A stretch of DNA of 26,363 nucleotides from a virus. Shown here one piece after another: positions 1,232 to 24,150 of this stretch. The DNA lies in IMG/VR virus record IMGVR_UViG_3300010151_000124, positions 1 through 26,363 of that record; one strand, 5' to 3'. The notes beneath the pieces are model-generated. The model searched no databases and was not told the origin of the DNA. It saw only the letters and a program-made list of their open reading frames with translations. The number at the start of each line of letters is the position of its first letter. The first letter of the stretch is position 1. A program made the position numbers and the translations under genes.

Positions 1232-2050
1232 TTGTTTATACTGCTGTTTATGCTGTTGTTCAGCGCAGATGTCACAAGAGCGGATACTACGGCAAAAGAT
1301 AGGTGCGCGGTCGTAGACTGCACATGTAGGGTGGTTGCCGAAAAAGACACTGGGTTCACTTTCCAAGTGAAAGCGAATAGCAGAAGGCAATTGATTTATT
1401 TTAATGAAGACAGCGATGAAATTCTGGATTCGCAAAAGTTTGGCCTGACTGCCTTCGTTGACAAGTTCAGGGGCAAGCCAGCCAATGTGACACTGATTGG
1501 ATACACTGATGGCTGCGGTGGCAAGGCATACAACCGTGACTTAGCAGCACGTCGCGTACAACAGATAAAGAGAGCCGTAAAACAAGATATTCCACACGCC
1601 AACTTTAACATAGTTATCCACGGTGAACAGGTCAGCGGTCACTCTCAAGAGTCTAGACGGGTTGATATTATTTTTCATACAAAAGATTCCTTCATGACAA
1701 AAATAGAGAAAATACCAGCAGACCTTTATTTAATTGACGCTTCAGGCTCAATGTGGAGCGGCTGGAGAGATTGGACGAGTATCACTGAAGCCTCTCTAAA
1801 ACCAAACAGCAAAGTATATGTTTCAATGATGCGAGGGTGCTATAATGGACAAAGTTTATCCACAATCACACCCGGAGGTGGCACTGAAATTTGGTACTCG
1901 TACTGGAAGGTTATAGACCATATGCAACCCGGTCAAACGCTCCTAATTATATCCGACTTCGACTCTAATGTCCCATTGTCACAACCCGGAGCGACGATAA
2001 TTAGTCAAAAGGTGCGCGACAAGGGAATCACGGTCAAATATATAAAATAG
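1232..2050 (+). CDS. Exported OmpA-like / von Willebrand factor A fusion protein
   Basis: The only convincing plus-strand gene. It starts with TTG at 1232 behind GAGAGGG. A hydrophobic signal peptide covers residues 1-17 with no positive charge before it, so export is likely but atypical. Residues about 54-148 match the OmpA C-terminal peptidoglycan-binding fold, with GYTDGCGGKAYNRDLAARR at 90-108 and SRRVDI at 141-146. Residues about 163-272 look like a compact VWA domain, with a DASGS metal-site motif at 169-173, GGGTEIW near 216 and SDFDSN near 242. It would sit in the periplasm bound to peptidoglycan and present a metal-dependent adhesion domain. The gene ends 1 nt before the convergent gene at 2052. 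Opposite orientation and bacterial-style architecture suggest an acquired moron-like gene. Confidence 0.8.
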   Translation: MFILLFMLLFSADVTRADTTAKDRCAVVDCTCRVVAEKDTGFTFQVKANSRRQLIYFNEDSDEILDSQKFGLTAFVDKFRGKPANVTLIGYTDGCGGKAYNRDLAARRVQQIKRAVKQDIPHANFNIVIHGEQVSGHSQESRRVDIIFHTKDSFMTKIEKIPADLYLIDASGSMWSGWRDWTSITEASLKPNSKVYVSMMRGCYNGQSLSTITPGGGTEIWYSYWKVIDHMQPGQTLLIISDFDSNVPLSQPGATIISQKVRDKGITVKYIK

Positions 2051-3177: not shown

Positions 3178-3528
3178 TTATAATGTATCCACGCTATTAC
3201 CAAACGTCAACTGCTCACCATCTTCAAATGTGATAATTGTTTTGTTTGATGGGTGGGGCTTGACGTGGACCTTCAAAAAATCTTCTAATGAATCGAATAT
3301 TGCAATTCCTCCGCGCGGTGGAGGAAAAAGCCAGTGGATAATACAATGACCGGTGGCCAGTACAACACCCTCGATAACAATTCCCTCTCCAGACACTCCC
3401 GATTCATCATTCTGACGGCAGACCGTGAAGGACTTAATCCCCTGTGGGGCTCGACGCGGCGGTGGCTTAGGCTTTAAGTCGTCGTCGTCAACAATTAACG
3501 CTGCGGTGACCAAGTCTTGTTCTGACAT
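3178..3528 (-). CDS. Conserved phage-type hypothetical protein, 116 aa
   Basis: ATG at 3528 has AAGGA at suitable distance. After an acidic, Pro-rich lead (VDDDDLKPKPPPRR) the protein has a beta-rich core: DESGVSGEGIVIEGVVL, then HCIIHWLFPPP, SLEDFLKVHV and KTIITFEDGEQ. The order 'G-SG--V-EGV', 'W', 'S---F---H' and 'N-T-I-F' resembles small proteins of marine phages of unknown function. A sigma-70-like promoter is just upstream, so it starts the transcript running to about 2052. Confidence 0.65.
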   Translation of the reverse strand: MSEQDLVTAALIVDDDDLKPKPPPRRAPQGIKSFTVCRQNDESGVSGEGIVIEGVVLATGHCIIHWLFPPPRGGIAIFDSLEDFLKVHVKPHPSNKTIITFEDGEQLTFGNSVDTL

Positions 3529-3586: not shown

Positions 3587-3700
3587 TCAATTGTCACGCT
3601 TGGCGCCAAGCTCCCTATATAGCCAATAGCATGCAATTGTAACTACAGCGGCTAGGTCCATTAAAAGAATATATGCACCACATGATATTGTAGATAACAT
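3587..3700 (-). CDS. Small membrane peptide, 37 aa
   Basis: An ATG at 3700 directly follows the TAA of the VWA lipoprotein gene. The peptide is almost entirely one hydrophobic helix (ISCGAYILLMDLAAVVTIAC) followed by a basic end, RELGAKRDN, so it should be a single-pass membrane peptide with a charged cytoplasmic tail. GGGAAG upstream of the ATG is a possible ribosome site. The 14-nt palindrome at 3598-3611 lies within its 3' end, so the region could instead be regulatory. Confidence 0.45.
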   Translation of the reverse strand: MLSTISCGAYILLMDLAAVVTIACYWLYRELGAKRDN

Positions 3701-4729
3701 TTAGCTTCCCGTGTCTCCGGTGTCTGATCCGGTGTCTTCAAAATATCGGTAACCCACCTCTACCAGATCGTTGCCACCCGGTATAGTTGTAAAGTATACG
3801 ATGTTATCCGACGCAGAGTAGTACCAGTCATAGTATAGCGAACCATTTACAAAAACCCTGATTGATTCCTCGATTGGCTCGTGAGTTAGTTCAATAAATT
3901 CATATGGTTCTAGTCGGCTAGCCGCATCTATAACGCCGGCGCTCCAGTCTTCGGAGCAAATATCAATAATCTGGCCGGCAAAATGATTTGTAGCTTCAAT
4001 GTATCTATCTCCAGTGTGTGCAGATGAAGTATTACACAACGACTCAGAAAGATCTAAGTTAACAATGCTTGATAGGAAGACTGAACCACTACGCAATCCC
4101 TGATACCAAGACACAAACCCGTCCACTGTTGGAAAATGATCATCGCTCTGCTCTTCTTCGTCAGATACAAATACCACCAGCAGAGCCGCATCATAACGAA
4201 GCCATGTCTGTGCATATGCATTGTTTACAAGATATTCATATGATGCATCAAAGCCCTCCTCTCTATGTCCCCGGCCCATACTCTGATACATTGCTTCTGC
4301 ATCAGCTATGTCATCACCAGGAACCAACGGGAATTGCGACTCAATAGAGGCACTGCCGGGATCGTTAGACATCATTGCAAGTCTCCAGCCGCTTTCGGGC
4401 AAAGCTATAAGCATTGCCTCAATTCCTGATAGGAGTTCTTCGTCAAACCTATTCATTGAGCCGGAAGTGTCAATAACCCAAAGAATATCAACGCCATCAA
4501 CTGATTGAGGCTGAACAAAAGAGTCTACCCATATCAAACCGGGATCCCCAGGCACTTCTACCTCGATGTATGTGGGAACTTCAATTTCTTCGTAAACAGT
4601 TTCAACAATTGTTTCTGTAACTGTTTCGATGCCGGATCCGACGATATAATAATCTAAATTGGTGCAACCAGTCAGGAAAAGCATGGAAAATATTATTCCA
4701 ATAATTCTTTTTGCAGCTCCACCAAGCAT
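3701..4729 (-). CDS. VWA-domain lipoprotein
   Basis: The N-terminus has a basic-hydrophobic signal and a lipobox LFLTGC with the lipid-carrying Cys at 22. Residues 36-60 are a Thr/Glu/Val-rich linker. The VWA domain spans about 80-285: ILWVIDTSGSM with the DTSGS metal site at 87-91, and a second acidic segment VVFVSDEEEQSDDHF. The last part (about 290-330) is a beta-rich module, and the protein ends DTGSDTGDTGS, an Asp/Thr/Gly tail common in Myxococcota/Bdellovibrionota-like exported proteins. It should be anchored in a membrane and bind a ligand through a Mg/Ca-dependent site. It lies 2 nt after the trypsin-like protease gene, with GGAGGG before its ATG, so the two are co-expressed. Confidence 0.85.
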   Translation of the reverse strand: MLGGAAKRIIGIIFSMLFLTGCTNLDYYIVGSGIETVTETIVETVYEEIEVPTYIEVEVPGDPGLIWVDSFVQPQSVDGVDILWVIDTSGSMNRFDEELLSGIEAMLIALPESGWRLAMMSNDPGSASIESQFPLVPGDDIADAEAMYQSMGRGHREEGFDASYEYLVNNAYAQTWLRYDAALLVVFVSDEEEQSDDHFPTVDGFVSWYQGLRSGSVFLSSIVNLDLSESLCNTSSAHTGDRYIEATNHFAGQIIDICSEDWSAGVIDAASRLEPYEFIELTHEPIEESIRVFVNGSLYYDWYYSASDNIVYFTTIPGGNDLVEVGYRYFEDTGSDTGDTGS

Positions 4730-4731
4730 AA

Positions 4732-5535
4732 TTATTTACCCTCCAGCATCTCCTCTAGCTCGCCAACATTGATGCCCCAAATCGGCGAAACATACACGAT
4801 GTTTTCCTGTATCTGTGGGTGATATAGACCGCGCTCTATGTCCACCGCCACTAAGACCCCAACATATCTACCCTTTTCGTCAAAGACGCCAGAGCCAGAG
4901 GATCCCATCCATGCATAAGATTGCATGATAATATAACCACTTGAATCGCTAATCCCTGCTAATGTACCACCTAGCGTCAGTGGTTCACCATGCTGATGAT
5001 GGCCTGGGAATCCTGTATAGAGCACCTTGAGGCCTTCGCCGGCATGGGCGGGCTTAATTGGGCTAAGTGCCGCAGCTTCGACGGTACGCATCTTTGGTAT
5101 CAATAGTACACAGATGTCACGATCTCGGTCACCATATACAATTGTGCCGGCTACCATCTCGCCATCCTGGCTCTGTACCAGTGCGCCCTGAATCCTGGGG
5201 TCGTCATACACATGATACGCTGTTATAACAATGTGATAACCTTTGTGTGCAAAGTATGTGCCAGATCCCCTGACAACCCTTTGACCAGAAATCGTACCCC
5301 AGACAACAACAGCAGACTCTTTTGACATCTTAAGAGTCTTTCTATATTTTCTGGATACTGCGGCTGTCTCTCCAGCCGCAGGCGCAGCATCAACGGTAGA
5401 GCCGGCTGAGTCATTAATGCCGTTGCTGTGCACACTCGGTGTACTCGGAATTGGAGTACACGTCAAGGTAAAGATCGAACATATGGCGATAAGCCATAGC
5501 GACATAAACGATTTAAAGCCAAGCCTTTGCTTCAC
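4732..5535 (-). CDS. Exported trypsin-like serine protease (S1 family)
   Basis: GTG at 5535 with GGAGGG in front. Residues 1-26 are a signal peptide; Cys26 in FTLTC might be lipidated, but the lipobox is poor. After a Ser/Ala-rich linker, the protease fold covers about 72-262. The triad is visible: His108 in VITAYHV, Asp140 in DRDICVLL and Ser213 in GSSGSGVF. The triad and the GKYVG-like strand after the Ser are typical of HtrA/S1C-type trypsin folds, and no PDZ domain follows. It is expected to act in the periplasm or outside the cell, perhaps processing the VWA lipoprotein encoded next to it; that link is inference. Confidence 0.85.
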   Translation of the reverse strand: MKQRLGFKSFMSLWLIAICSIFTLTCTPIPSTPSVHSNGINDSAGSTVDAAPAAGETAAVSRKYRKTLKMSKESAVVVWGTISGQRVVRGSGTYFAHKGYHIVITAYHVYDDPRIQGALVQSQDGEMVAGTIVYGDRDRDICVLLIPKMRTVEAAALSPIKPAHAGEGLKVLYTGFPGHHQHGEPLTLGGTLAGISDSSGYIIMQSYAWMGSSGSGVFDEKGRYVGVLVAVDIERGLYHPQIQENIVYVSPIWGINVGELEEMLEGK

Positions 5536-5606: not shown

Positions 5607-5987
5607 TTAAGTCTTTGAAAAAGATAAAACTTCTCTGTCGTAATCGTCTTCAAGGCGCACAACGTCATCTAATTCTGGCGTACTCACCTCAAATAATCTA
5701 ACATTCTGATTGCAGTAGGCACAAAACCTGTGAACTGTTCCTGGTGTAATATGATATGCATCGCCGGCTCGCATAATTGCAATTTGTTTGTCGTCTCCTT
5801 CACCGATCTCAAGCTGTAGTCGGCCTTCCATAACAAATATTGTTTCATCCTTAACTTTATGATATTGTTTGGATAATCTATGTCCCTCCTTGATGAAAAG
5901 GATCTTTCCAACATATCTTTCATTGTGGGCAAAGATGGTTTCGCCACCCCACGGTTTGTTAACATGAATTGTCTCAAATTTTGGCAT
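5607..5987 (-). CDS. Cupin, mannose-6-phosphate isomerase type II-like
   Basis: A 126-residue single cupin. The N-terminus has KPWGGETIF, the signature of the cupin half of GDP-mannose pyrophosphorylase/phosphomannose isomerases. Metal ligands are recognisable: SKQYHKVKDE with Gln, His and Glu, and a second-motif His in TPGTVHRFCA. As a free-standing domain it could isomerise a sugar phosphate or simply be a sugar-binding cupin. ATG at 5987 has AGGAG with 6-nt spacing. It precedes the exported-protein block but shows no sequence link to it. Confidence 0.75.
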   Translation of the reverse strand: MPKFETIHVNKPWGGETIFAHNERYVGKILFIKEGHRLSKQYHKVKDETIFVMEGRLQLEIGEGDDKQIAIMRAGDAYHITPGTVHRFCAYCNQNVRLFEVSTPELDDVVRLEDDYDREVLSFSKT

Positions 5988-22707: not shown

Positions 22708-23602
22708 AGAACTGCTCAACCAGCTTTGCCATGTAGGCTTTATCGTCTGATGTGTGAGAAATTAAATTTTCAGCATCGAGGTTCATAATTTTGACACTCT
22801 CAAATGGCGAAAGATATTCTAAACTTGAAAAACCCTTTAACTCCCTTTTTGTTGCTTCAACCTTAATTGCTAGGTGTCGCGACGACGAAGGATCTTTTGA
22901 CTGGCGGCCGTTCTTTTTTCCGCGGATACCGTGTGTTCGCATTAAGTCCTCAATTTTAAATCTTGCGTATGTGTCGGAGTAATTAAAATCTTGGAGCTGG
23001 GCTTCGGATAAGTAAGATATGGCCACAAGATCCTTAAAGTCGTGATTTCCATCAATTCGACTGGAAGGGTAAAAATACACACATCTCACAAAGTCTGATT
23101 TCGTTTCTATCTTGTCAAAGGCATGCACTGTGCCAGACTTTACACTCATCCAGTCTAAGACCTCGTATTTTGCCTCTTGTTTTCGAGTAGGAAGCCCCTC
23201 AATATTGTCATCATGAAAAACCAGAAGCTCACCAAACTTAAACTTTACAAATCTCGAATATTCGGTCGAGACCCTAAGCGTGTTCTCATCTTCTATGCGA
23301 ATTGTGCGCGCTTTGTCCGACAAGGGCAGAAGGCCAGAAAGAGAAAGCAAATAAATCAATCTAGCCCAAACTATTTGTTTCGAAATACCAGCTGGTTCGG
23401 TACCGTGCGGCACTCTAAGAACTTGTGTCTCTATGTTTGCTGCAATTTGGCCTGCTTTGGTTTCGACATCAAACGCTTCAAAAAAATGATATACTTTTGG
23501 ATCTGTATATATAGCCGGTATGTTATTGATATATGCGTACAGCAATGCAGATAAGTCGTTTCCAATTATTAATTTATCGTATTCATATACGTGATTCTTC
23601 AA
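22691..23602 (-). CDS. Conserved marine-phage protein with Rossmann-like start, 303 aa
   Basis: The N-terminus YDKLIIGNDLSALLYAYINN looks like the beta-alpha start of a FAD/NAD-binding Rossmann fold, although the full GxGxxG is not present. Later parts include KQIVWARLIYLLSLSGLLPL and a C-terminal helical region. As I recall them, similar genes lie beside the nucleotidyltransferase-like gene in other marine phages, which suggests a shared pathway. ATG at 23602 overlaps the metzincin gene by 4 nt. Function unknown. Confidence 0.6.
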   Translation of the reverse strand: MKNHVYEYDKLIIGNDLSALLYAYINNIPAIYTDPKVYHFFEAFDVETKAGQIAANIETQVLRVPHGTEPAGISKQIVWARLIYLLSLSGLLPLSDKARTIRIEDENTLRVSTEYSRFVKFKFGELLVFHDDNIEGLPTRKQEAKYEVLDWMSVKSGTVHAFDKIETKSDFVRCVYFYPSSRIDGNHDFKDLVAISYLSEAQLQDFNYSDTYARFKIEDLMRTHGIRGKKNGRQSKDPSSSRHLAIKVEATKRELKGFSSLEYLSPFESVKIMNLDAENLISHTSDDKAYMAKLVEQFYGKSR

Positions 23603-24150
23603 TCGGCCTCCCGCTTAAGCCCCGATGCATTGTGGCCACCATATTGCCATGACGGATGCATCATATGATATTTTCTGTAGTAATGTTTCCAACCAATTGC
23701 ATGGCCGATTTCATGTTCCACTACCCTCTCCGTGGTCGCATACATTCTGTGGATGTATATCTTTGCGGTCAATATCTCTCTTGTATCATTAACTATAAGA
23801 GTCCTGGTTAATGCCATATTCGGTCCCACAAAAGTGTTATCAGGCAAGCTGATTGTTATTTTTCCCGTAAGATCTTCAAGCATCAAACAGTCGACGTTAT
23901 CATAAATCTTACCAAAATTATACCCCAATTTTTTCCAATAATTAAGGGATAATTGCACCCTGCTCTTTGTAACCGGTGCACTCTTGCAGATGTGCACCGT
24001 AGGAACAGTGTACCATTGACCATGCCTCTGTGGTGGGCCAATCTGAATCACCTCATATTCTTCTACTAATTCTGTTTCTTGAGCCTGCTCGTATATCTTA
24101 GCTGGGGTACACCCCACCAAAGAAAACAAAAGCAATATTATATACCGCAA
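23599..24150 (-). CDS. Metzincin-type metalloprotease lipoprotein
   Basis: TTG at 24150 behind GGAGGTG. A hydrophobic signal leads to the lipobox LVGC with Cys14. Near the C-terminus VVEHEIGHAIGWKHYYRKYHMM holds the full zinc-binding HExxHxxGxxH motif (146-156) and a Met-turn HMMH (162-165), as in metzincins/matrixins. The protein would be lipid-anchored in a membrane and cleave proteins in the periplasm or outside. No inhibitory propeptide cysteine switch is seen. It is unusual for a phage. It is the first of the block leading down to dnaE. Confidence 0.85.
   Translation of the reverse strand: MRYIILLLFSLVGCTPAKIYEQAQETELVEEYEVIQIGPPQRHGQWYTVPTVHICKSAPVTKSRVQLSLNYWKKLGYNFGKIYDNVDCLMLEDLTGKITISLPDNTFVGPNMALTRTLIVNDTREILTAKIYIHRMYATTERVVEHEIGHAIGWKHYYRKYHMMHPSWQYGGHNASGLKREAD

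Follow-up and report, generated by a model that had tools for sequence, protein, structure and literature searches.

A conserved phage gene pair encoding a MIDAS/VWA lipoprotein and an exported HtrA-like protease

HtrA, DegS and DegP (MEROPS S1C) combine an export signal with a Trypsin_2 domain bearing an HDS triad, and proteases of the HtrA type normally choose their substrates through PDZ domains. In complement factor B and C2, a MIDAS VWA domain places a trypsin-fold protease on its target. Among phages, the envelope-acting proteins known so far are mostly lysis proteins or small exclusion lipoproteins. Bd0875 of Bdellovibrio (378 aa; D66, E213, Y349) is located at the predator surface, and its deletion is complemented by neither D66A nor E213A (PMC11003981). 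McaA of magnetotactic bacteria is a periplasmic MIDAS VWA protein whose localisation is MIDAS-dependent (PMC9512821).

Here we analyzed two adjacent phage genes, one for a VWA lipoprotein and one for an exported protease, a pair of which searches of open-licence PMC papers gave no description. If our reading is true, a conserved MIDAS-lipoprotein/protease pair would be a new phage route for editing the surface of the infected cell, and its MIDAS and triad residues offer clean loss-of-function mutants that make the idea directly testable. The comparison with factor B and C2 is an analogy only and implies no homology of the combination: these are single polypeptides of animal immunity. McaA has no protease, and a McaA-type system was rejected as a match for the pair. 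VMAP (VWA-MoxR-associated) conflict systems were also set aside, as export signals are present here and a MoxR gene was not recognised nearby.

Two exported products encoded 2 nt apart

The window, that is the whole 26,363-base stretch analyzed, comes from an IMG/VR virus record and is an uncultured-phage fragment with phage genes flanking the pair. It also encodes a phage-type DNA polymerase III, a chaperonin (GroEL), two ClpP-like proteins and IMPDH-family and ribonucleotide reductase proteins, and contains a weak match to phrog_33083 "endolysin". The protease gene (4732–5535, minus strand) precedes the VWA gene (3701–4729, minus strand), and a GGAGGG ribosome-binding site lies before the GTG start of the former and the ATG start of the latter. 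A sequence-only reading of this DNA had proposed two exported proteins with intact motifs. Our analysis confirmed both open reading frames with their coordinates, the gap of exactly 2 nt, the DTSGS motif at residue 87 and the H108-D140-S213 triad, and export signals were predicted in both products.

A cupin gene (5607–5987, minus strand) lies directly upstream of the protease, as in many phages in which the protease comes first. Downstream of the VWA gene is a phrog_7499 protein of unknown function (3178–3528, minus strand), which recurs in this position in protease-first phages (family F15). Right after the VWA stop codon begins an ORF (3587–3700, minus strand) whose 37-aa translation shows a single hydrophobic, TM-like segment; it is possibly the third gene of the protease-VWA unit.

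The VWA protein (342 aa) has no family match in Pfam or PHROGs and was assigned as a MIDAS/VWA lipoprotein from its sequence motifs and its AlphaFold model. Its signal peptide with lipobox (LTGC, Cys22) is followed by a Glu/Val/Pro-rich stalk (residues ~30–63), the VWA domain (~78–275, with DTSGS, SDE at 189–191 and Cys232/Cys258), a C-terminal beta region (~278–329) and a DTG tail. Foldseek places the model (pLDDT 82) with integrin I/VWA domains (E 2e-8), and VIA aligns it to the alpha2 I domain at Z 15.7 and rmsd 3.5 over 181 residues; the model predicts a strand ahead of the domain (65–72) and further strands behind it (278–329). Cys22, D87, S89, S91, S189 and D190 are invariant in all 85 VWA sequences, Cys232/Cys258 are kept in 84, and E191 is invariant in a 30-row alignment (A1). 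A strict lipobox was found at the pattern level in 76 of the 85; here and below, signal-peptide and lipobox calls were made from sequence patterns and inspection.

The protease (267 aa) is an exported HtrA/DegS-like serine protease. Pfam recognises Trypsin_2 (E 1.9e-16) and no other domain. The triad residues lie in TAYHVYD (H108), RDRDICV (D140) and GSSGSG (S213), and they are kept in every one of the 59–60 relatives (of 60) that have those alignment columns. The predicted structure (pLDDT 76) best resembles PDZ-deleted DegS and HtrA catalytic domains, with a TMt of about 0.75–0.80 to DegS delta-PDZ. The C-terminal PDZ domain or domains of HtrA/DegP are absent from the phage protein, which stops after the catalytic domain and is therefore best described as an HtrA-like catalytic domain rather than a full HtrA. 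Unlike HtrA, DegS and DegP, the phage proteases measure 240–320 aa and are often lipoproteins in protease-first phages: a lipobox is found in 20 of 30 such proteases, with several near misses, and is absent in 29 of 30 proteases from VWA-first phages, which have an ordinary-looking cleavable signal at the N-terminus instead. The lipobox of the window protease, TLTC, is unusual (close relatives have LLGC, FASC or GASC), and the protein is probably a lipoprotein modified at the Cys of this motif.

Cellular relatives and the predator adhesins

A profile search retrieved cellular VWA relatives that are 22–32% identical. They account for 79 of the 80 loci kept, and almost all belong to Bdellovibrionota, Myxococcota or unassigned delta-type bins. 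The suggestion that the DTG-rich tail hints at a Myxococcota/Bdellovibrionota-like origin thus gains support from where these relatives lie; the tail itself does not serve as a family marker, since it is common (59/85) and the assignment stands on the VWA domain. Within the flanking DNA examined, no phage-type protease lies near the VWA gene at any of the 79 cellular loci, and therefore the pairing looks phage-specific. The only cellular match with both genes, L042 on the "WOR-3 bin77 chromosome" (G001 = CP070664), was rejected as misbinned phage DNA and is uninformative on the host because it is a 9.6-kb piece with phage neighbours among contigs joined by 100-N runs. In a profile search of 369 Bdellovibrionota genomes, the protease matched only HtrA-type proteins, at 51 bits or less and mostly in frames of ~350–570 aa, and so no prophage or misbinned piece there pointed to a host.

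The phage VWA profile found at least 6 paralogs in a complete B. bacteriovorus genome. One of them (379 aa; lipobox Cys22, D66, E214, Y350) is, judging by these residues, very probably the ortholog of Bd0875. Aligned to the window VWA, its D66 corresponds to D87 and its E214 to E191. Bd0875 and Bd1483 (PMC11003981) have in common with the phage proteins a Cys22 lipobox, a MIDAS DxSxS, SDE, a C-terminal beta region and the Cys of a DIC motif, although identity is only 22–30%. Bd0875 differs by its cap insertion, its role in prey invasion and the lack of a known protease partner, and it is the phage VWAs, not Bd0875/Bd1483, that have a V/E/P stalk, often a DTG tail, and clades of their own. Given this link to predator adhesins, one may ask if Bdellovibrionota or Myxococcota are hosts of such phages or donors of their genes.

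The pair could also serve superinfection exclusion, the VWA protein masking or jamming a receptor as T5 Llp does on FhuA and the protease removing the receptor or maturing the VWA protein. Phage lipoproteins with such a role are known, T5 Llp being, like the VWA protein, phage-encoded and placed in the host envelope (PMC9586334), and in Bdellovibrio the MIDAS family works at the surface where cells make contact (PMC11003981). However, Llp is much smaller and has no VWA domain, MIDAS or protease, and no constant link to receptor-binding genes was seen at the loci of our pair, with tail genes near few of them. We consider exclusion improbable as the main role.

Conservation and re-formation of the pair in phages

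A scan with the single VWA protein gave 37 phage loci, and a scan with a protease alignment, in which the VWA was not used, gave 196 relatives, the best 80 of which were kept. Among these best 80 of 196, grouped at 90% identity, the VWA adjoins 39 of 45 protease clusters, and in 35 of 45 the two share a strand and are no more than 150 nt apart. This set is biased to the VWA-adjacent subfamily, because the proteases used as queries were themselves neighbours of a VWA gene. Seen from the other gene, 62 of 97 non-redundant phage VWA clusters have a protease at most 150 nt away on the same strand, 30 of them protease-first and 32 VWA-first. In VWA-first sets, the protease is adjacent in 34 of the 59 clusters having adequate flanks. 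Strong purifying selection acts on both genes (dN/dS 0.03–0.13 for non-saturated pairs), which are therefore more than chance ORFs. The pairing of the two genes is thus well supported, and the proposal that each could be isolated host contamination in an unconserved pair fails, as the pair is widely conserved in phages. A tblastn search of cultured phages with either protein gave no match.

Linkage is not universal. No adjacent protease was found in 25 of the 97 VWA clusters despite adequate flanks. In seven genomes (G002–G005, G008, G014, G015) the protease is not adjacent to the VWA gene and lies elsewhere in the genome; in L005, L008 and L009 it is about 17–24 kb away, in a slot that other phages fill with VWA-protease, between a small TM protein and a Nudix gene. 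Some long but incomplete fragments with a VWA (e.g., 184 kb) yielded no detectable protease, which weakens processing of the lipoprotein as the sole cause of pairing.

A T4-type late promoter is absent upstream of the pair in 61 of 62 clusters. This bears on a possible function in quality control or egress, where the HtrA-like protease would, together with chaperonin, ClpP and small-heat-shock proteins, act late in infection to clear proteins that are misfolded or form a barrier, with the VWA protein as an anchor. GroEL and two ClpP-like genes do occur in the window, relatives have genes beside the VWA that inspection suggests are small-heat-shock-like and YiiX-like, and the pair has TM peptides next to it, an arrangement also found in lysis cassettes. 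Besides the missing promoter, no holin, endolysin or spanin was recognised beside the pair and the missing PDZ speaks against a general HtrA role, so that we regard this function as quite improbable.

The gene trees, built from short and divergent proteins, conflict. On the protease tree the two gene orders separate in 2 changes; on the VWA tree, protease-first linkage takes 11 changes, of which starred branches force 8 or more. The clade that holds the window VWA (10 rows, 99/99) contains both adjacent and non-adjacent cases. The VWA of L239 is 85% identical to a VWA-first type, yet the protease upstream of it is of the protease-first type (47–52% identity to L251 and L264); the pair sits in a heat-shock/YiiX-like/VWA/nucleotidyltransferase context, and in L005, L017 and L279, which share this context, the VWA has no adjacent protease. 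In L128, L129, L154, L161, L167 and L182, a second lineage of VWA lipoproteins, with N-terminal ASH/HYDIN-type domains (ASH-VWA), is the direct or close neighbour of this protease family; in L182 it has taken the exact place of the short VWA. Taken together, the tree conflict, L239 and ASH-VWA are unlikely to be explained by one frozen ancestral operon, and we favour a functional link between the VWA protein and the protease. In a tree with cellular relatives, the short phage VWAs fall into one clade and the long ones into another (SH-aLRT 99 and 100 by a quick method), which suggests two acquisitions.

That the pair was kept or re-formed repeatedly hints at a tool of two parts with which the phage alters the host envelope. 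Of the two-part envelope system first suggested from the sequence, the conserved two-gene unit in phages and the export signals on both products now stand; complex formation, capture in trans, the target and what the phage gains are what we infer. We tentatively propose, at slightly less than even chances, that the VWA protein captures targets for the protease. Both proteins would be exported through the host Sec pathway during infection, and the VWA protein would be lipidated at Cys22, its stalk holding the MIDAS domain off the membrane. The MIDAS would bind, via Mg2+, probably an acidic residue of a partner, either an envelope protein of the infected cell or the protease itself. A lipid-anchored, stalked MIDAS VWA would be a natural replacement in an HtrA-like protease that lacks PDZ, capturing or positioning the substrate in trans, after which the protease would cut this target. 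The likely benefit would be remodelling of the cell surface, so that the receptor of competing phages is lost or the envelope is loosened for release.

This capture model is supported by the occurrence of the pair in both orders, by its re-formation, including with ASH-VWA as partner, by the invariant MIDAS and triad, and by the several genomes that keep both genes unlinked. The resemblance to PDZ-deleted DegS/HtrA and the alignment of D66 and E213 of Bd0875 to D87 and E191 also argue for it. Against it stand the clusters without an adjacent protease, the long fragments without any, and the lack of a fusion of VWA and protease domains, which was sought among the 97 VWA clusters. A Trx-like lipoprotein is found within 1 kb of the VWA gene in 13 of 97 clusters, mostly those without an adjacent protease; it too counts against capture and hints that the VWA may have further enzymes as partners.

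Co-occurrence alone could also reflect a shared pool of envelope genes. In an alternative reading, the pair is an envelope cassette: the two proteins would both be exported and work in one stage of infection, yet act independently, one as adhesin or blocker and the other as protease, linked by co-expression. Other exported genes nearby (the Trx-like lipoproteins, metalloprotease-like lipoproteins and small TM proteins) and the persistence of VWA and protease at separate sites in several genomes are consistent with such a cassette. However, VWA-protease adjacency is far commoner than adjacency with other neighbours and has been rebuilt with different partners and orders, and we hold independent action to be unlikely. 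A wider version of the capture model is possible, though we would sooner doubt it than accept it: predator-type MIDAS adhesins, acquired more than once, would be exchangeable targeting subunits in a widespread and as yet undescribed split system of lipid-anchored VWA and PDZ-less HtrA-like protease at work in the host envelope.

Other genes in the window and at related loci

On the strand opposite to the pair, window positions 1232–2050 (plus strand) encode an exported protein in which an OmpA-family domain (Pfam E 9e-8) precedes a second VWA-like motif (DASGSM, residue 169); it is possibly a peptidoglycan-bound VWA protein. Positions 23599–24150 (minus strand) encode what is probably a lipoprotein and, by its HEIGHAIGWKH motif and a Pfam match slightly under the cut-off, a matrixin-like zinc protease; exported proteins resembling it lie near the pair in L128, L129, L161 and L275.

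Thioredoxin/AhpC-like lipoproteins directly adjoin the VWA gene in L013, L026, L027, L032, L037, L128, L129, L161, L222, L240, L248 and L268, for the most part at loci whose protease is not adjacent, and are candidates for an alternative partner. A 54–77-aa protein with two TM segments (F5) is encoded directly upstream of VWA-protease in L022, L033, L174, L177 and other VWA-first loci, and it stays upstream of the protease even in genomes whose VWA gene lies at another site. Many neighbours, including Nudix proteins (L033:11814–12263, L258:1287–3155 and similar), share an N-terminal motif, NWNKFLTE or LLENWRKFLNE, which we take to resemble T4-type capsid-targeting sequences. In VWA-carrying viral loci longer than 9 kb, TATAAATA is not enriched on the VWA strand (61 vs 77 in shuffled sequence) and is about threefold commoner than in shuffled sequence on the opposite strand (134 vs 43).
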